In this document: positions 70 to 9,400 of the stretch, piece by piece
Numbering within the stretch: the first letter of the stretch is position 1
Layout: the number at the start of each line of letters is the position of its first letter
From: an uncultured Oscillospiraceae bacterium
GTDB lineage: Bacteria; Bacillota; Clostridia; Oscillospirales; Ruminococcaceae
NCBI GenBank assembly: GCA_900546885.1
Contig: UREN01000003.1
Span: 1-63,085, forward strand
Direction: 5' to 3'
Length of the DNA: 63,085 bases
The notes under the pieces: generated by a model
The model's database searches: none
What the model saw: the letters and a program-made list of their open reading frames with translations, nothing else
What the model was told of the DNA's origin: nothing
Program-made: the position numbers and the translations under genes

Positions 70-459
70 ATGGCAGCAAAATGTCCGGTGTGTGGAGCAC
101 CGATGGAAAACAACAGCTGCGGATATTGCGGATACAAAGAAGAAACCATCCCCAATTCTGCAACTGTACCGCCTCAGCCGGGGCAGCCCTTTGTTCAATC
201 GCAGGTTATTATCAACAATCAAACCATCCCCAATCCGGGGGTAGTGCCGGGAGTCAGCAAGAAAAATAAGATGGTCGCACTGTTACTTTGCATCTTCTTG
301 GGCGTGCTTGGCGTACACAGGTTTTATGTGGGTAAGATCGGTACTGGCCTCCTCTACCTGTTTACGGTCGGTTTGTTTGGAATTGGCTGGATCATTGACA
401 TCATCTTGATTGCGGTTGGCTCCTTCAAAGATCAATTTGATTTGCCGCTGCGTCAGTAA
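70..459 (+). CDS. Zinc-ribbon TM2 domain membrane protein
   Basis: A 129-residue protein. An N-terminal zinc ribbon has two CxxC pairs (residues about 5-21, CPVC and CGYC), followed by a Pro/Gln/Asn-rich linker. The C-terminal TM2 domain has two hydrophobic helices, with the conserved GVHRFYVGK turn entering the first pair and a short charged tail. TM2 proteins are small inner-membrane proteins without an agreed biochemical role. The ATG follows GAGAGGAA at suitable spacing, directly after the adapter. It is 15 bases ahead of the SPFH gene, so the two are probably co-transcribed. Its place in a mobile element marks it as cargo. Confidence 0.85.
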   Translation: MAAKCPVCGAPMENNSCGYCGYKEETIPNSATVPPQPGQPFVQSQVIINNQTIPNPGVVPGVSKKNKMVALLLCIFLGVLGVHRFYVGKIGTGLLYLFTVGLFGIGWIIDIILIAVGSFKDQFDLPLRQ

Positions 460-474
460 GAAGGCGGTGGTTGT

Positions 475-1458
475 ATGGGACTGTTGGATGCAGTAAAGGA
501 CCAGTTTCTTGATGTAATCGAGTATGTAGATCAGAGTAACAAGCTGATTGTTTCCAAATACCAGCGTGAAAGTGGAAATAATGAATTGAAACAGGGTTCC
601 AAGGTAATCGTGCGGGAAAGTCAGAACGCTGTTTTTTTGAAGGGCGGAAAGCTTGCCGATATTCTGCCGCCCGGAACCTATTCACTGACAACGGATAACT
701 TTCCGGTGCTGTCCAGCCTCAAGGCATTCCCTTATTTATTCGTTTCTCCGGTAATTGCCGATGTGTACTTTGTGAGCACCAGACAATTCATCGACAATAA
801 ATGGGCGACCAAGAATCCGATTATGAAGCGTGATAAGGACTTTAATATGGTTCGTATCCGTTCCTTTGGAAAATTTGCTTTTCGCATCACCGATGTTCCA
901 GCTTTTATGAGGGAGATCTTTGGGACAAAGGGAATTGTGATGACCTATGATATTGTCGAATACCTTTCTTCCATGGTCACAGAAGCTTTCTCAACCGTAG
1001 TAGCGGAAAGCGAGATGTCCGTGCTTGATCTGGCCACAGAATATCGAAAACTATCTGGTGAGCTTCAACAGAGACTAAATGCACAAGCTGCTGCAATGGG
1101 TGTGCAGTTCAGTGATATTCTCATTGAAAATATCTCCCTGCCCGACGAGGTTGAAAAACTGATTGACGAGCAATCCGGGATTGGCATGGCAAAACAGGAT
1201 ATGACAACCTTTATGCAGTATCAGACCGCCAGAGCTATGCGGGATGCCTCCAAGCAGAGAGGCGGATTAGCTGGACTGGGTGCTGGTATGGCTTTGGGCA
1301 ATACAATGGCACAAGGAATTCAGGCAACTGTTAATCCTGCCGCTTCCAAGAGCATGGTCGAACAACTGCGGGAATTGAAGGAACTACTGGACGAGGGCAT
1401 ACTGACACAGGACGAGTTTGATGCACAAAAGAAAGCAATTTTAGAAAAGCGGTCATAA
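475..1458 (+). CDS. SPFH-domain protein with C-terminal SHOCT domain
   Basis: A 327-residue protein of the SPFH/band-7-like family (YdjI-like, sometimes called virion core protein-like). The N-terminal two thirds carry the SPFH-like beta fold, including the loop DILPPGTYSL and the following FPYLFVSPVIADVYFV stretch. A helical region and a Gly/Ala-rich segment follow. Residues about 294-327 form a SHOCT motif (LRELKELLDEGILTQDEFD). SPFH proteins assemble on membranes as scaffolds, and SHOCT domains are small oligomerization modules. No transmembrane helix is obvious, so membrane attachment may come from its TM2 neighbour. It sits between two membrane-associated cargo genes with tight spacing. 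The function in this element is unknown. Confidence 0.82.
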   Translation: MGLLDAVKDQFLDVIEYVDQSNKLIVSKYQRESGNNELKQGSKVIVRESQNAVFLKGGKLADILPPGTYSLTTDNFPVLSSLKAFPYLFVSPVIADVYFVSTRQFIDNKWATKNPIMKRDKDFNMVRIRSFGKFAFRITDVPAFMREIFGTKGIVMTYDIVEYLSSMVTEAFSTVVAESEMSVLDLATEYRKLSGELQQRLNAQAAAMGVQFSDILIENISLPDEVEKLIDEQSGIGMAKQDMTTFMQYQTARAMRDASKQRGGLAGLGAGMALGNTMAQGIQATVNPAASKSMVEQLRELKELLDEGILTQDEFDAQKKAILEKRS

Positions 1459-1481
1459 CCGTTGAGAAAGAGGAGAGAGAA

Positions 1482-2243
1482 ATGGCGAAACAACCTAAAA
1501 TTCGAGTGTGTAAAAATTGCAACAACCCACTTCCAGAGAAAGCGACTGTATGTCCGTCATGCGGGGCCAAAAACAAAAAGCCCATCTATAAGAAATGGTG
1601 GTTCTGGCTGATTATTGCCCTGATTGTGATTGGCGCAGCCTCAAGCGGCGGTACTGAGTCTGATCCTTCTGATAATCAGCCTTCTTCTTCGGTTTCTTCT
1701 GGAATCGACAATGATGCAACTTCTGGTGATGTTTCTTCTGGCGAGACGGAGGATGCTTCCTCGAACGAACCTTCTGAAACTGACTCCATCCCCAAAGAGT
1801 ACAAATCCGCTCTGAAAAAAGCGGAATCTTATAGTGACATAATGCATATGTCAAAGGCCGCAATCTACGACCAACTCGTGTCTGAATATGGTGAACAGTT
1901 CTCAGAGGAAGCCGCACAGTATGCCATCGACAATCTGGTTGCTGACTGGAATGCAAATGCTTTGGCCAAGGCCGAGGATTACGCAAAGACCATGCAAATG
2001 TCGAAAGCTGGAATCTATGACCAGTTGATTTCTGAATATGGTGAGAAATTTACGCCAGAAGAAGCTCAATACGCCGTGGATAATGTAGAAGCCGATTGGA
2101 AAGCAAATGCACTTGCAAAGGCGGAAAGCTATCAGGAAATGATGAGTATGTCTCCCAGTGCAATCTATGATCAGCTGGTTTCTGAGTATGGAGAAAAATT
2201 CACTGCGGAAGAAGCGCAGTATGCTATTGATAACCTGAGTTGA
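1482..2243 (+). CDS. Zinc-ribbon, membrane-anchored Ltp-repeat protein (superinfection-exclusion-like)
   Basis: A 253-residue protein. Residues 10-27 form a zinc ribbon (CKNC and CPSC), residues about 39-54 are one transmembrane helix, and 55-105 are a Ser/Asp/Glu-rich linker. Residues 110-253 hold three tandem copies of a roughly 50-residue domain with the signature IYDQLVSEYGEKFT and EEAQYAIDN. This is the Ltp/host-cell-surface-exposed lipoprotein domain. The family founder, from Streptococcus phage TP-J34, blocks injection of phage DNA. Here the lipobox is replaced by a zinc ribbon plus a helix, so anchoring differs. A strong GAGGAGAG site precedes the ATG. A role in phage or plasmid exclusion is inferred from the family and the mobile setting. 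Confidence 0.8.
   Translation: MAKQPKIRVCKNCNNPLPEKATVCPSCGAKNKKPIYKKWWFWLIIALIVIGAASSGGTESDPSDNQPSSSVSSGIDNDATSGDVSSGETEDASSNEPSETDSIPKEYKSALKKAESYSDIMHMSKAAIYDQLVSEYGEQFSEEAAQYAIDNLVADWNANALAKAEDYAKTMQMSKAGIYDQLISEYGEKFTPEEAQYAVDNVEADWKANALAKAESYQEMMSMSPSAIYDQLVSEYGEKFTAEEAQYAIDNLS
1809..2240 (+). repeat. Three direct repeats of about 150 bp encoding Ltp domains
   Basis: Units lie at 1809-1958, 1959-2108 and 2109-2240 (the last is shorter). The phrase TCTGAATATG or TCTGAGTATG recurs at 1881, 2031 and 2181, exactly 150 bp apart. The repeats are in frame and diverged at the DNA level, so they are an older domain duplication rather than a recent expansion. Confidence 0.9.
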
Positions 2244-2250
2244 CAAATAT

Positions 2251-2296
2251 CCCTTGGTAACAAGGGCGCACTTCTATACAGGGTAAACCCTGTATG
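2251..2296 (-). other. Candidate oriT, MOBQ/IncQ-like
   Basis: On the minus strand an inverted repeat (ATACAGGGT and ACCCTGTAT, arms 2276-2284 and 2287-2295) is followed by AGAAGTGCGCCCTTG (2261-2275). The inverted-repeat-then-GTGCGCCCT order is that of IncQ (RSF1010/R1162) transfer origins, where MobA nicks just after the CCCT. The site lies about 600 bp upstream of a MobA/MobL relaxase gene, which is the expected partner. A second small hairpin (CCCTTG and CAAGGG, 2251-2266) overlaps the presumed nick. The exact nick is inferred. Confidence 0.7.
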
Positions 2297-2315
2297 CGTG
2301 CGCTCTGCGAGGCAA

Positions 2316-2347
2316 ACAGCCCGGACGATGGAAGTCCGGGCTGTTTT
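2316..2347 (+). terminator. Rho-independent terminator after cargo operon
   Basis: An 11-bp stem ACAGCCCGGAC/GTCCGGGCTGT with a 7-base loop is followed by TTTT. It separates the three-gene cargo unit from the mobilization genes. Confidence 0.75.
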
Positions 2348-2410
2348 GCGTCACTTCGTTCCGTACAAGGGGCTGTACCCCTTGCGCCGCTTATGCGGCT
2401 ATCCCTGCCC

Positions 2411-2460
2411 GCTTTGGATGGGAATCAATCTGTTTGCACAGACAGTTTCCCATCCAAAGC
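2411..2460. repeat. Perfect 14-bp inverted repeat in mobilization leader
   Basis: Arms GCTTTGGATGGGAA (2411-2424) and TTCCCATCCAAAGC (2447-2460) pair perfectly. An inner CTGT/ACAG stem lies in the loop. No T-run follows, so it is not a standard terminator. A smaller hairpin CAAGGGG/CCCCTTG lies just upstream at 2367-2385. The interval 2348-2541 has no gene and is dominated by such structures. Confidence 0.8.
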
Positions 2461-2483
2461 CTAAAACTCAACACGCAAATTTT

Positions 2484-2516
2484 ACCGCTTGTCCGAAAGA
2501 CAGGCGGTATTTTTTA
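2484..2516 (+). terminator. Terminator-like hairpin just upstream of DUF3847 gene
   Basis: Stem ACCGCTTGTC/GACAGGCGGT with a CGAAA loop is followed by ATTTTTTAT. It ends only about 25 bases before the DUF3847 start codon, so it may act as an attenuator of the mobilization genes rather than a simple end of transcript. Confidence 0.65.
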
Positions 2517-2541
2517 TCTGCAAATAAAGGAGGAATCTACG

Positions 2542-2850
2542 ATGCCAACAACCGAAAAACTGAAACAGGAGATCGCAGACGCAGAAAAGAGGCTGGCGCA
2601 GGAGCGCAGTAGGCTCCAGCGGCTGCAAAACCGGAAATCCTATTATGAGAAGGGAGACCGGAAGAAACGGGCGCACCGCCTCATTACCAGAGGGGCTGCC
2701 GTGGAGAGCATTGCACCGCTGGCGAAAGTTCTGGGCGAAACGGAGTTCTATGCTTTTACGGAAAAGGTTTTTGCTTTACCGGAAGTCAGGGCTTTGTTGA
2801 TGGAGGCAGTCAATGCACACAATCAGGCAAGCCAGAAAGGAAAGGGATAA
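2542..2850 (+). CDS. DUF3847 family protein
   Basis: A 102-residue protein beginning with a basic coiled coil (residues about 5-45, with Lys/Arg-rich RLAQERSRLQRLQNRK), followed by a short helical domain. DUF3847 proteins are found almost only beside MobA/MobL relaxases in Firmicutes mobilizable elements and are probably relaxosome accessories; that function is inferred. The ATG at 2542 is chosen because AAAGGAGG stands 8 bases upstream. Open frame exists further upstream, but it covers the hairpin-rich leader and has no ribosome site. The stop codon is 2 bases from the relaxase start. Confidence 0.8.
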   Translation: MPTTEKLKQEIADAEKRLAQERSRLQRLQNRKSYYEKGDRKKRAHRLITRGAAVESIAPLAKVLGETEFYAFTEKVFALPEVRALLMEAVNAHNQASQKGKG

Positions 2851-2852
2851 GT

Positions 2853-4325
2853 ATCGCACTATTTCACTTCCATGTTACACAGATCAAACGCAGCGCAGGG
2901 CAATCCGCTGTTGCGTCCGCTGCTTACCGATCCGGTGAAAAGCTGCACAGCGAGTATTACGGAGAGGACAGTGACTACACCCAGAAAGGCGGTGTCCTCT
3001 GTTCTGAAATCCTGCTGCCGCCCCACGCTCCTCCTTCCTTCGCAGACAGGCAAACTCTGTGGAACGAGGTGGAAAAGGCAGAACGGGGCAAGAAAGCCCA
3101 GCTTGCATACAGTTTTGACATTGCCTTGCAGAACGAGTTTTCCATGCAGGAGAACATCGGCCTTGCAAGGCAATTTTTATTGGAGCAGTTTGTGAGCCGG
3201 GGCATGGTGGTGGATTTCTCCGTTCACGCCCCCGACAAGGAGGACGGCGGCATTGCCAACCCGCATTTTCATGTCATGTGTCCCATCCGTCCCCTGCTGC
3301 CCGATGGAAAATGGGGCAACAAGCAGCGGCGGGAATATCTCTTGGATGAAAACGGGGAGCGCATACGGGATGAAGCAGGAAACTATGTGTTCAACGCTGT
3401 CCCCACTACGGACTGGGGCAAACCGGAAACGCTGGAACATTGGCGGGAACAGTGGGCGGCAATGTGCAATGCTCGATTTGCCGGGAAAGGTCTGGAATGC
3501 CGCATCGACCACCGCAGCTACGAGCGTCAGGGTGTGGAGCAGCTTCCTACTGTTCATGAGGGGCCGGCGATCCGCCAGATGGAGGCAAGAGGTATCCGTA
3601 CTGATAAGGGCGATTTCAACCGCTGGGTGAAGGCGACCAATGCTTTGATCGGCAAGCTGAAAAAGAAAATTACGGCGCTACTTGACTGGCTGAAAGAAGC
3701 GCATGGGGAATTGAGCAAACCGCAAGTCCCCAATCTGGCGCAGCTGCTCAGCGAGTATTACACCAACCGCAGCACAGGCGCATGGAGCCGGAAAGCGAAA
3801 ATCGGAAATCTCAAAGAGTTCAATGAGATTTGTAATTATCTCATGCAGAACCATTTGACAACGCCGAAACAGTTGCAGGAGCGTGTATCTGCGCTGAGTG
3901 ACCGCATTGACATTTTGAAAAGCACCCTGCGTGGCAAATCTGACCGCATGAAGGAGTTGGAGGAACTCCTTCGCATGGTGCAGTTTTACACCGACGGAAA
4001 GCCTGTTGCTGACAAGCTGGCAGCCATCAAGTGGAAAGGTAGGCGTGAGCAATTCATGTCTGAAAATGAAAATGCACTCCGCCTGTATCACATGGCAGAG
4101 CGCAAATTAAAACCGCATTTTAAGGACGGAAAATTGCCGGTCATTGCATGGCGCAAAGAGCATGACCGTCTGGAACAGGAATATAAGACGGGGCAGGCAG
4201 AACTTTCACCCATCTATGCGGAGGTGAAAAAGCTTTGGCAGATCAAATACAAGGTAGAACAAGTTGTTCGTGCGCAGGAAAATCACGAGCAGAGCCGCAG
4301 GAAACAGCAGCAGCTCGACCATTAA
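2853..4325 (+). CDS. mobA: MobA/MobL (MOBQ) relaxase with an ATC start codon
   Basis: 490 residues if read from ATC at 2853. The protein cleaves one strand at oriT and pilots it during conjugative transfer. The N-terminal relaxase phrase FHFHVTQIKRS starts at residue 4. The presumed catalytic Tyr is residue 25 (in AAYRSG), as in RSF1010 MobA, and the metal-binding motif III NPHFHV is at about residues 136-141. The C-terminal half is helical and coiled. The family normally starts with MA(L/I)FHFHV. Here the matching codon is ATC, with AAGGAAAGGG about 7 bases upstream. The first ATG, GTG or TTG in frame is GTG at 3069, which would remove the catalytic Tyr. Either ATC initiates, possibly coupled to DUF3847, or the gene has lost its start. 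Confidence 0.8.
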   Translation: MALFHFHVTQIKRSAGQSAVASAAYRSGEKLHSEYYGEDSDYTQKGGVLCSEILLPPHAPPSFADRQTLWNEVEKAERGKKAQLAYSFDIALQNEFSMQENIGLARQFLLEQFVSRGMVVDFSVHAPDKEDGGIANPHFHVMCPIRPLLPDGKWGNKQRREYLLDENGERIRDEAGNYVFNAVPTTDWGKPETLEHWREQWAAMCNARFAGKGLECRIDHRSYERQGVEQLPTVHEGPAIRQMEARGIRTDKGDFNRWVKATNALIGKLKKKITALLDWLKEAHGELSKPQVPNLAQLLSEYYTNRSTGAWSRKAKIGNLKEFNEICNYLMQNHLTTPKQLQERVSALSDRIDILKSTLRGKSDRMKELEELLRMVQFYTDGKPVADKLAAIKWKGRREQFMSENENALRLYHMAERKLKPHFKDGKLPVIAWRKEHDRLEQEYKTGQAELSPIYAEVKKLWQIKYKVEQVVRAQENHEQSRRKQQQLDH

Positions 4326-4339
4326 GGAGGATTTCAAAG

Positions 4340-6691
<2,352 letters not shown>

Positions 6692-6698
6692 CCTGCAA

Positions 6699-6714
6699 AA
6701 AGTAATATTACTTT
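6699..6714. repeat. Perfect 16-bp palindrome at the element/chromosome boundary
   Basis: AAAGTAATATTACTTT reads the same on both strands. It is AT-only except for one G/C pair per arm, and lies 24 bases after the recombinase stop. It stands exactly where composition changes to the GC-rich chromosome. It is a candidate recombinase site or element end. Confidence 0.6.
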
Positions 6715-6774
6715 CTTATGACCCCCGGCCATTGGGCATGGGGCTTTTTGCAAGATTGCACAAAGGCGTCAGGC

Positions 6775-7059
6775 TCAGGCCTGGCCCTCCTCCTTCATTT
6801 TGGCAAAGCACTCGCTGCAATACACAGGGCGGTCTTCGCGGGGCTTGAAGGGGACGCGGGCTTCTTTGCCGCACGCAGCGCACGTAGCCGTGAACATCTC
6901 ACGGGTGCCGCGGGTGGCATTCTTGCGGGCATCGCGGCAGGCTTTGCAGCGCTGGGGCTCATTTTCGAAGCCACGGCTGGCATAAAACTCCTGCTCACCG
7001 GCGGTGAACACGAACTCCTGGCCGCATTCTTTGCATACTAAGGTCTTGTCTTCGTACAT
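6775..7059 (-). CDS. Zinc-ribbon CxxC protein, unknown role
   Basis: 94 residues from the ATG at 7059. Four CxxC pairs are visible: CKEC near residue 9, CKAC near 38, CAAC near 57 and CSEC near 81. They make two treble-clef or ribbon-type zinc sites. It matches the short clostridial family annotated as zinc-ribbon domain protein, possibly involved in nucleic-acid binding; the role is unproven. It ends about 60 bp from the mobile-element boundary, so insertion occurred beside its 3' end without breaking it. Upstream on the same strand is a tRNA-like remnant, then a sigma factor gene. Confidence 0.8.
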   Translation of the reverse strand: MYEDKTLVCKECGQEFVFTAGEQEFYASRGFENEPQRCKACRDARKNATRGTREMFTATCAACGKEARVPFKPREDRPVYCSECFAKMKEEGQA

Positions 7060-7085
7060 TTTGGATATCTCCAATCTTAGAATTT

Positions 7086-7155
7086 TGCCCGCGGAAGGAT
7101 TCAAACCGACACCTTTGATCTGGGGACCAACGCTCTGATTTAAGCTACTGGGGGC
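7086..7155 (-). pseudogene. tRNA-like remnant in the 5' region of the zinc-ribbon gene
   Basis: On the minus strand the segment reads like a tRNA. It has TAGCTTAAATCAGAGC in the D-arm position and the T-loop phrase GGTTTGAATCC. The ends GCCCC and GGGGC-like CGCGGGC can partly pair. There is no good 7-base anticodon loop, the T stem has two mismatches, the D-loop lacks GG, and no CCA follows. A functional tRNA is therefore unlikely. It could be a decayed tRNA or a tRNA-mimic leader. Confidence 0.4.
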
Positions 7156-7190
7156 ACATATATTCCCTGCGCCGTATGGCGCCATGGAAC

Positions 7191-7742
7191 CTATTTTAAT
7201 TTGGCGCGCACCCGCTGCAAGGCGTTATCTACCGCCTTGGGGGTAAGGTGCAGGCGCCGCGCAATCTGCCCATAGGACGCGCCAGCCATAAAAAGGGCCA
7301 GCACGCTTTTTTCCCGTGGGGACAGGCGCGTATGAATGGTGCGCACGGCCGCGCGGTAGGCTTCGCTTTCCTCTGCGCACGCCTGCGGGCTTTTAGCCTG
7401 GGTGGACGGGGCCGCCTCAATGGGCATCGCCCGGTTCAGCACCTCGTGCTTGCGGCGGGAAGCGGCGCGCGCCGCCGAGTTTACCGCGTTGCGCACGCAG
7501 GCTGCCGCATAGGTGGAAAAGGCCGTGCCCGCCCCGCCCTTGTAAGTGCGCACGGCGCAGAACAGGCCCACAAGGCCTTCCTGCACGGCATCTTCAAACT
7601 CCAGCCCCGGGCACACGGCGCGGGCCGCAGCGGCATTCACCACCGGCATCATTCTGGCAATGATGCCCGCCAGGGCCGCCTCATCGCCCTGCCTTGCCTG
7701 CGCAAGCTGAGCCATTTGAGCACTGCGGGAAGCGTTTGCCAT
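7191..7742 (-). CDS. Sigma-70 family factor, sigma-H-like
   Basis: 183 residues from the ATG at 7742, chosen because GGAGG lies 6 bases upstream. Region 2 is visible (residues about 45-100, LEFEDAVQEGLVGLF and FSTYAAACVRNAVN). Region 4 is at the C-terminus (LSPREKSVLALFMAGASYGQ and KAVDNALQRVRAKLK). Region 3 is missing, which is usual for small alternative sigma factors. The RKHEVLN linker and the KAVDNALQR ending resemble SigH/Spo0H of Firmicutes. It is probably an alternative sigma factor; its regulon is not evident here. An anti-sigma gene is not adjacent. A small GCGCC/GGCGC hairpin follows the stop. Confidence 0.75.
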   Translation of the reverse strand: MANASRSAQMAQLAQARQGDEAALAGIIARMMPVVNAAAARAVCPGLEFEDAVQEGLVGLFCAVRTYKGGAGTAFSTYAAACVRNAVNSAARAASRRKHEVLNRAMPIEAAPSTQAKSPQACAEESEAYRAAVRTIHTRLSPREKSVLALFMAGASYGQIARRLHLTPKAVDNALQRVRAKLK

Positions 7743-7905
7743 TGCCTGCCTCCGAAACCACCGGCAGATACCTGCCCTGCGCATGCGTGGCTGTCTGCCG
7801 CGCATTTGATATTATTGTACAAATCGCTTCTTTAAAAGTCAAGTCGAAACGCCGGTGTGGAAAAAGTTTGTGCCGGTTGCCCATTTCCAAGGGATTTTTT
7901 CGTGG

Positions 7906-9339
7906 TTATTGCCCTGTTTTCTCGCCCATCGGGCCTTTGCTTTCTGCCGCGCAGGCCATTGCAATCCCCTCCTGCACGGTCACATTGCGCACCCAGTGCC
8001 CGCCCTTGATGCGAATGAGCGACAAAAGCACCTTCACCGGGCTGTCTATTTTCAGGCAGGCATATACGGCGGGCACGGGCCAGTGCAGAACAAGGCCCGT
8101 GAAAAAGCCAAGCGGGATGCTGGTGAGCCAAAGCGTGCCGCAATCCAGCAAGAAGCCCATGCGTGTGTCGCCGCCGCCGCGCAGCACGCCCACAACACAC
8201 GTCAGCTCTACCCCCATTGTCAGCTGCAAAAGGGCCAGCACGCCAATCATGCCATAGGCCGCCTCATGTACGGCCGGCGAGACGTGATACATAGCAAGAA
8301 ACAGCGGGCGCACGCACAAAATGAACAGGCAGTTCAACGCGCCCAGGCCAAAGCTGAGCGCTACCAGCGTGTTGGCCACGCGCTGCACGCGGGCGTAACT
8401 TCCCTCGCCCACCGTGCGCCCCGTAAGCACCGCAGCCGCGTTTCCCACCCCGTTGAGGGTGACGAAAGACAGCTGGTGCAGCACCATGGTAATGCTGCTT
8501 GCCGCCACGAATGTGCGGCTGATTTGCCCCATGATGATGCTGGTTACCGTGCTGCCAAACCCCCACAAAAGCTCGTTGCCCACCACGGGCAGGCTGTGGC
8601 GGAAATATTCGCCCAGCAGCTCTTTATCCCAGGTGAAGCAATCTTTGACGCGAAAACCCACCAGCTTTTCTTTTGTATACATATAAATAAGCGCCAGAAT
8701 CAGCTCGGAACAGCGCGCGCACACCGTGCCTACGGCCGCGCCGCGCACGCCCAGGGCGGGCGCGCCCAGCTTGCCAAAAATGAAAATGTAATTGAAAATT
8801 ACATTCACAAAAAAGCTGCACCCGTATACGCCTACGGTCATTTTCACCTGCTCTGTGCCGCGCAGGCTGGAAAGGTAACACGATGCCAGCGCATAGGGCA
8901 AATAGCTGAACGCCACCACCGAAAGGTAGCTAGCCCCGGCCTCAATCACCTGTACATCCGGGGTAAAAATGCGCAAAATCTGATGCGGAAAGGCCAGCGA
9001 CAGCAGTGTGAGCACACTGACGGCGCAAAACACCGCCTGCACGGCAAGGCGCACCACTTTTCGGATATGGGCCATATCCTTTTTGCCCCAGTACTGGGCA
9101 ATCAGCACGCCGCCGCCCGAGGCCAGGCCGTAAGAACAGCTCATCACCAGCGTCTGCATCTGATTGCCAAGGTTTGCGCCGGAGATTGCCACGTCCCCAA
9201 GGCTGCCCAGCATCACACTGTCCATCAGCGTCACCCCGAAGCTGATGGCATACTGAAAAGCCATGGGCCCCGCAATGGCCAGCAGGTTCCGGTAGAAAGA
9301 CTTTTCTGTAATGAATTTCTCTTTCAGCGCCGTTTTCAA
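7906..9339 (-). CDS. MATE family efflux transporter
   Basis: 477 residues with about 12 hydrophobic segments in two homologous halves. The start shows the typical MATE N-terminus (FYRNLLAIAGPMAFQYAIS, then LMDSVMLGSLGD). The middle carries SGGGVLIAQYWGKKD. MATE pumps exchange cations for drugs or metabolites across the cytoplasmic membrane. It is co-directional with tex and yfhO upstream (62 bp after tex), so it may share their transcript. The substrate cannot be predicted. It is a different subfamily from the second MATE gene at 20.8 kb. Confidence 0.92.
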   Translation of the reverse strand: MKTALKEKFITEKSFYRNLLAIAGPMAFQYAISFGVTLMDSVMLGSLGDVAISGANLGNQMQTLVMSCSYGLASGGGVLIAQYWGKKDMAHIRKVVRLAVQAVFCAVSVLTLLSLAFPHQILRIFTPDVQVIEAGASYLSVVAFSYLPYALASCYLSSLRGTEQVKMTVGVYGCSFFVNVIFNYIFIFGKLGAPALGVRGAAVGTVCARCSELILALIYMYTKEKLVGFRVKDCFTWDKELLGEYFRHSLPVVGNELLWGFGSTVTSIIMGQISRTFVAASSITMVLHQLSFVTLNGVGNAAAVLTGRTVGEGSYARVQRVANTLVALSFGLGALNCLFILCVRPLFLAMYHVSPAVHEAAYGMIGVLALLQLTMGVELTCVVGVLRGGGDTRMGFLLDCGTLWLTSIPLGFFTGLVLHWPVPAVYACLKIDSPVKVLLSLIRIKGGHWVRNVTVQEGIAMACAAESKGPMGEKTGQ

Positions 9340-9400
9340 GGGTTACCTCTCTTTCTGTTCCGCCCCCGGGCCGGGCGTCACAGGCGGCGGCACAGGGGCT

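Follow-up and report, generated by a model that had tools for sequence, protein, structure and literature searches.

The window analysed here is a stretch of 63,085 nucleotides from an uncultured gut bacterium of the Oscillospiraceae (assembly GCA_900546885.1, contig UREN01000003.1, positions 1 to 63,085). It opens with three closely packed genes, carried by a mobilizable element, which encode a TM2 protein, an SPFH-SHOCT protein and a membrane protein with three Ltp repeats. We found that the conserved unit is TM2 with SPFH-SHOCT, usually followed by a zinc-ribbon-anchored protein, and that the outer domain borne by this third protein varies, Ltp being one of two or more kinds. The three genes, and the two main parts of the third, are as follows.

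70..459, + strand: gene 1, N-terminal zinc ribbon (CxxC...CxxC) and TM2 domain (~256-405; Pfam PF05154, 8.6e-22)
475..1458, + strand: gene 2, SPFH/Band_7_1 domain (~568-1182; PF13421, 5.2e-71) and C-terminal SHOCT domain (~1360-1443; PF09851, 1.5e-8)
1482..2243, + strand: gene 3, zinc ribbon, single helix, acidic linker and three Ltp repeats (Lipoprotein_Ltp, PF07553, 2e-77, three stretches)
1509..1637, + strand: gene 3 anchor, comprising a zinc ribbon (aa 10-30), a basic stretch and a membrane helix (aa 39-52), common to the DUF6591-bearing third genes described below
1791..2240, + strand: Ltp repeats of gene 3 (aa 104-153, 154-203 and 204-253), acidic and predicted to be extracellular (AlphaFold model, 4eqq match and isoelectric point, pI)

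The genes run in one direction with gaps of 15 bases (genes 1-2) and 23 bases (genes 2-3), and all three frames are open. The initial annotation, made from the letters alone, had described three tightly spaced genes of this content, and Pfam, the translations and an AlphaFold model bear the description out; the zinc-ribbon models themselves score under the Pfam cut-offs (0.02-0.06, best 0.023, for gene 1 and 6e-5 for gene 3), with the CxxC pairs visible in the translations. A public protein of 447 residues (P0122) carries TM2, SPFH and SHOCT in one chain; it is a single member and may be an assembly error. Upstream of gene 1, bases 1-55 are an Illumina adapter (P7 fragment, index CACTGT and Read-2 adapter) and not biological sequence, the letters matching the adapter oligo exactly. 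As the adapter was left untrimmed at the contig start, the contig begins just before gene 1 and the window lacks the element's upstream part.

A search for close relatives of the SPFH gene returned 21 genome loci, ten of which (L012-L021) match its SHOCT end only and were dropped. Across the 11 that were kept, SPFH gene identity is 67-99% and a TM2 gene lies directly upstream in every case. Nine of the 11 then have a third gene, which opens with this same zinc ribbon; a third gene is absent from L003, and out of view in L009, where the contig ends ~200 bases after the SPFH gene. The outer part of the third protein is Ltp in two of the nine (L001 and L004) and DUF6591 (PF20234) in six (L005-L008, L010 and L011); in the remaining one (L002, a Fournierella relative) the gene is cut short, with only the zinc ribbon left. 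By eye, a MerR-like regulator frame is found upstream of TM2 in L007, L008 and L010, with a divergent HTH-like frame between the two in L008 and L010.

The exchange of the outer domain can be located in the DNA. As far as position 1705, the window and L011, its closest DUF6591-bearing relative, are 79-92% identical in every one of 11 consecutive 150-base blocks; the BLAST match stops at 1740, in the linker after the membrane helix, and the outer parts beyond are unrelated. We sought a common fold for Ltp and DUF6591 and found none, with no direct comparison of the two structures: the outer parts have no sequence similarity (E 1.5), the DUF6591 model matches nothing in the PDB below 0.001, and in the predicted models the three C-terminal helices of DUF6591 are longer than those of an Ltp repeat. 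In an SPFH tree of 13 rows with only four starred branches, the window and L001 belong to a starred group with L011 (DUF6591), L002 and L003, and the Ltp-bearing L004 lies outside this group, so that at least two changes of outer domain are needed on the tree. An Atopobiaceae (Actinomycetota) copy is placed among copies from Oscillospiraceae and Intestinimonas; the Atopobiaceae TM2-SPFH pair of L003 (4726-6181) has a split SPFH frame.

Viewed from Ltp, the pairing is rare. Of 291 genomes sampled evenly across the class, 22 have Ltp and 159 have Band_7_1, and SPFH lies within ~1.5 kb of Ltp in one of the 22 Ltp genomes, which is the seed genome (some loci are cut by contig ends); the genome of L004, from outside this sample, is a second case. 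Among 30 Band_7_1 loci (~1.4 kb viewed on each side, some cut), TM2 is upstream in the seed only and downstream in four. An SPFH gene of the trio type, at a threshold of 1e-80, was found in 2 of 348, 2 of 297 and 1 of 87 genomes in three families; four of these five genomes (of 732) are seeds, and the sole non-seed genome, G629, has TM2 and SPFH with no third gene in view. At five in 732 genomes the module is sporadic, as mobile modules are. SPFH relatives in plasmid (20) and phage (3) records are distant, each with <60% identity. Searches of IMG/VR gave four loci for the SPFH query, all matching the SHOCT end only, and 33 for the gene 3 query, 14 of which reach the repeats while the rest match the anchor or the linker. 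The initial annotation had joined TM2, SPFH and Ltp in one candidate system: the order of TM2, SPFH and third gene is indeed conserved, but Ltp is not fixed as the outer part. With at least two outer domains, and with Ltp genes rarely near SPFH genes (the very outcome that the annotation had named as telling against its proposal), a fixed TM2-SPFH-Ltp system is ruled out.

In the model of gene 3 (mean pLDDT 83, from 46 aligned sequences), short N-terminal strands are followed by a helix (residues 39-52), a disordered linker (55-99) and then three repeats of three helices each. The Ltp part resembles the solved Ltp of phage TP-J34 (4eqq) in sequence (E 2.7e-20), and the model superimposes on it with TM 0.90-0.93 of target, at 1.2-1.3 angstrom (1.2 angstrom over 101 columns with 46% identity). 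The repeats had been likened in the initial annotation to a protein that blocks phage DNA entry in Streptococcus, and structure prediction agrees, in that they have both the fold and the sequence of a proven superinfection-exclusion protein. They also weakly resemble a RecX structure (3e3v, E 0.01). Gene 3 is not a lipoprotein, as there is no cysteine after residue 27 and hence no lipobox; its anchor is the zinc ribbon and helix. The computed pI is 9.9 for residues 1-38, 4.05 for the linker and 4.25 for the repeats (residues 104-253). By the positive-inside rule, the basic flank of a membrane helix stays cytoplasmic; since gene 3 is basic before the helix and acidic after it, the zinc ribbon is probably cytoplasmic and the Ltp repeats would lie outside the cell.

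Other proteins carry the same outer domains on other anchors. Protein starts in the 22 Ltp genomes, assigned by motif rules and by eye, are of the zinc ribbon-helix type in eight, the remainder being a plain helix, a lipoprotein signal or something else, with no frame obtained for two loci. In the public protein P0025, a part 90% identical to the window's Ltp part lies behind a lipoprotein signal where the window has a zinc ribbon and helix, so that either anchor can probably serve to display the repeats. DUF6591 is found behind lipoprotein-like signals in L131, L135 and L140 (by eye), and in genome G004 (L128/L142) on a zinc ribbon-helix protein adjoining another SPFH-like frame. These arrangements fit a putative surface display of Ltp and DUF6591 by exchangeable anchors.

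Where Ltp genes have been tested, they are reported to act on phages. In the presence of cloned ltp genes, several lactococcal phages are reported to plate less well by many orders, and two Ltp proteins that differ from each other at eight positions to block different phages (PMC3952083); the target of Ltp is described as the phage tape-measure protein (PMC5137146). The Ltp of Streptococcus thermophilus phage TP-J34 (4eqq; PF07553) resembles gene 3 in repeat sequence and fold, in acidity and in membrane-anchored display. It is described as a prophage-encoded lipoprotein with two repeat regions (PMC3952083), whereas gene 3 has three repeats, a zinc ribbon-helix anchor, TM2 and SPFH neighbours and a place on a mobilizable element instead of in a prophage lysogeny module. 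Relatives of Ltp are present in 91 of 50,697 phage records and 36 of 72,556 plasmid records, and among the 30 phage matches listed 11 are annotated as superinfection exclusion or immunity. The protein gp22 of R. gnavus phage phiRg507T2_3 lies between a regulator and an integrase, is annotated as superinfection exclusion and shares with gene 3 the succession of zinc ribbon, helix, linker and Ltp; unlike gene 3, it has two repeats and belongs to a prophage lysogeny region, and the annotation of the 5 kb to either side names neither TM2 nor SPFH. Among open-licence PMC papers, SPFH combined with 'anti-phage defense' gave no match, and for TM2 together with zinc ribbon and superinfection exclusion the sole match was the SHOCT paper, in which the exclusion term does not occur.

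Downstream of the trio lie the backbone genes and the right end of the element.

2244..2249, no strand: right edge of the cargo slot, where backbone identity to locus L164 is regained at 2249, six bases past the gene 3 stop
2542..2850, + strand: DUF3847 backbone protein (PF12958, 4.7e-33)
2850..4325, + strand: MobA/MobL relaxase (PF03389, 2.7e-87), an open frame whose start codon is not settled
4337..4960, + strand: backbone protein without a Pfam family
4957..6675, + strand: large serine recombinase with DUF4368 (PF00239, PF07508, PF13408 and PF14287)
6733..6770, no strand: right end of the element, by comparison with relatives; element identity stops at 6733-6751 and chromosomal identity begins at ~6770

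In the right-end comparison, 160 of 197 genomes match some part of the query, whether element or flank. The left end was located in L001 (Candidatus Fournierella pullistercoris), which is 96.6% identical to the window over 6,173 bases and reaches further left: it lies at L001 ~4930, about 2.6 kb upstream of gene 1, just past an open frame that reads like trigger factor (by eye), and is common to L001, L002 and L165. Between this end and the trio, L001 has an XRE-type regulator and a small HTH protein (both by eye) and a small serine recombinase, named through its L011 homologue (PF00239). A short inverted repeat is visible by eye at the element ends. With a relaxase and a large serine recombinase between two located ends, this is by its gene content a mobilizable element, as had been claimed from the window alone. 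We presume that it resembles elements of the Tn4451 kind with a TnpX-type recombinase; both combine a MobA/MobL relaxase with a DUF4368-bearing large serine recombinase, a likeness at the level of Pfam domains. A shrunken copy of the element is present in L002 (7085-9656), where the beginning of gene 3 leads straight into the last part of the recombinase gene. Beyond the element, the window has an ordinary ribosomal protein L10 leader (RF00557, 54341-54475).

The description of the trio as cargo is also upheld, since it occupies a replaceable slot. A search with backbone DNA matched 26 of 247 genomes at 1e-50, and regions were fetched from 19 of the 26. The backbone of genome G778 (L164) is 95% identical over window 2249-6749 and 92.5% identical to L001 4986-7531, and the exact place of the trio (L164 5406-7729) is taken by three other zinc-ribbon proteins, with hydrophobic stretches seen by eye in them and a DUF5050 domain in the third. 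The replacement spans from ~65 bases before gene 1 to six bases past gene 3; with the backbone shared on both sides and different cargo between, the trio operon has been exchanged as a unit. L167, with 78-83% backbone DNA identity, has four zinc-ribbon proteins with hydrophobic stretches (5411-9350; by eye), three of them with a C-terminal ribbon.

Eleven related elements have readable cargo: the trio itself (window/L001), L164, L167, L168, L169, L170, L172, L173, L176, L180 and L181. Restriction or Gabija-type genes occur in five of the 11, a raw count, uncorrected for how common defence genes are in mobile elements: an Mrr nuclease in L168, PDC-S01 with a restriction-type protein in L173, type II restriction-modification with GajA/GajB-like genes beside a related recombinase in L176 (3401-10971), and type I restriction genes in L180 and L181. 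Within this set L172, L173, L176 and L180 are without the DUF3847-relaxase part, the relaxase of L181 is a different one (by eye), the recombinase of L170 lies on a separate contig, and the sequences of L169 and L172 open at the start of a contig; the slot is thus comparable, though not always identical, across the 11. Left out were L165, which is degraded; L166/L185, L171 and L184, at a contig edge; L182, with recombinases alone; L186, which is the L002 region; L174 and L175, retrieved for other purposes; L177-L179, whose recombinase is just 39-40% identical; and L183, L187 and L188, with the relaxase part alone.

We read the trio as a mobile, scaffolded surface cassette, this version of which would exclude phage DNA; we hold this reading tentatively, as it falls a little short of being probable. 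Phage exclusion is the best single guess because of the likeness to 4eqq, the Ltp records in phages, gp22 of phiRg507T2_3 and the replaceable cargo slot. The trio would act as one cargo operon of the mobilizable element. Its TM2 and SPFH-SHOCT proteins may form or mark a membrane patch, and if the three proteins form a complex, the third would be held at the patch by its cytoplasmic zinc ribbon and one membrane helix, with the acidic Ltp repeats shown outside. The repeats would there bind the tape-measure protein, or another part of the incoming phage, at the membrane. Entry of phage DNA would then be stopped and both host and element protected, as reported for the lipid-anchored Ltp of TP-J34. 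A wider reading, which we consider possible but more doubtful than not, is that the trio represents an undescribed class of membrane-scaffold exclusion modules, in which a TM2/SPFH-SHOCT core and a zinc ribbon-helix anchor would carry interchangeable, unrelated surface domains (phage-type Ltp, DUF6591 and perhaps more) and would be shuffled with other zinc-ribbon membrane sets through a cargo region that holds restriction and Gabija-type systems in relatives.

Several observations weigh against exclusion. Classical Ltp exclusion involves neither gene 1 nor gene 2; PADLOC-DB 2.0 has no match for either and weak matches only for gene 3 (best 1.4e-3), and no PADLOC system fits the trio. Ltp domains are also reported in the pneumococcal surface protein CbpL (PMC5137146). 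The majority outer domain, DUF6591, has a model with no PDB match below 0.001, and neither a mention of it nor a known role was found among open-licence PMC papers. By eye, the trio relatives L004, L006-L008, L010 and L011 look chromosomal. The other cargo is not uniformly defensive: three of the 11 slots hold zinc-ribbon sets (the trio, L164 and L167), L169 holds a two-component system (by eye), L170 a weak HSDR_N match below the cut-off, and L172 nothing known to PADLOC. Six further relaxase-bearing regions, with other backbones, lie outside the 11, and only L179 has restriction-modification genes (type II); transporter genes were seen by eye in L178, L187 and L188, nothing was recognised in L183, and the long protein of L177 has no PADLOC match.

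The main rival, which we regard as a serious possibility though a doubtful one, is a YdjGHI-like module of envelope stress or membrane maintenance, in which SPFH and zinc-ribbon anchors would organise or repair membrane patches and Ltp and DUF6591 would be envelope-binding sensors with no anti-phage role. The trio resembles pspA-ydjGHI of B. subtilis in combining an SPFH protein with zinc-ribbon or membrane partners (PMC8581546, PMC11237479): YdjI is reported to be an SPFH protein that needs the membrane proteins YdjG/H for its localisation (PMC8581546), and zinc ribbons, band-7 and membrane domains are described in the operon by Ravi et al. (PMC11237479). PF13421 also matches in B. subtilis; YdjI and gene 2 are compared here as SPFH proteins only. 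A stress role would suit the chromosomal appearance of the module in several Lachnospiraceae, the MerR-like frame before L007, L008 and L010 (both by eye) and the presence of DUF6591 in Ltp's place in six of the nine third genes. However, inspection of the ORFs around the trio by eye, without a model search for PspA, revealed no PspA-like gene, and a TPM-type YdjH was not recognised either, as Pfam found no TPM domain in genes 1-3 or in the third genes tested; the trio differs further in its C-terminal SHOCT, its TM2 partner and its swapped outer domain. The module is moreover sporadic and mobile instead of conserved in a lineage, and its outer domain here is that of phage exclusion proteins. 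Band 7 (PF13421) is given as the domain most often joined to SHOCT in PMC3581485, whose passages on SPFH-SHOCT proteins describe domains and not this operon.

It is unlikely that the trio provides entry or surface exclusion against conjugative or mobilizable elements, barring rival copies from the host. Such a role would be in keeping with cargo of an element that has a MobA/MobL relaxase, and with acidic outer domains of two unrelated kinds, but the Ltp genes reported on in PMC3952083 act on phages, no conjugation exclusion family was matched in Pfam, NCBIfam, PHROGs or PADLOC, and 10 of the 11 close loci have no window-like relaxase within the stretches compared. Very improbable is a functionless passenger, with an Ltp domain gained by chance recombination with a prophage gene: identity between the window and L011 does end in the linker and the Fournierella relative L002 lacks most of gene 3, but all three frames are open, the gene 3 protein is 100% identical in L001 where the adjacent backbone proteins are 91-98% identical, and the SPFH tree calls for two or more changes to account for the Ltp form.

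The exclusion part of the interpretation first put forward in the initial annotation stays plausible, and the more interesting point is a membrane core that is conserved while its outer domain can be swapped, housed in a slot also used for other zinc-ribbon sets and, in relatives, for restriction systems. If the exclusion reading is true, bacteria would have coupled the phage's own entry-blocking domain to a flotillin-like scaffold and passed it on as cargo with a swappable outer part. SPFH-SHOCT, TM2 and DUF6591 proteins, whose functions are vague or unknown, would gain a testable role, and zinc-ribbon membrane sets would be a place to seek new phage-exclusion systems. Even if the role is in envelope stress, the swapping of unrelated outer domains on a fixed anchor would offer a handle on what such modules sense.

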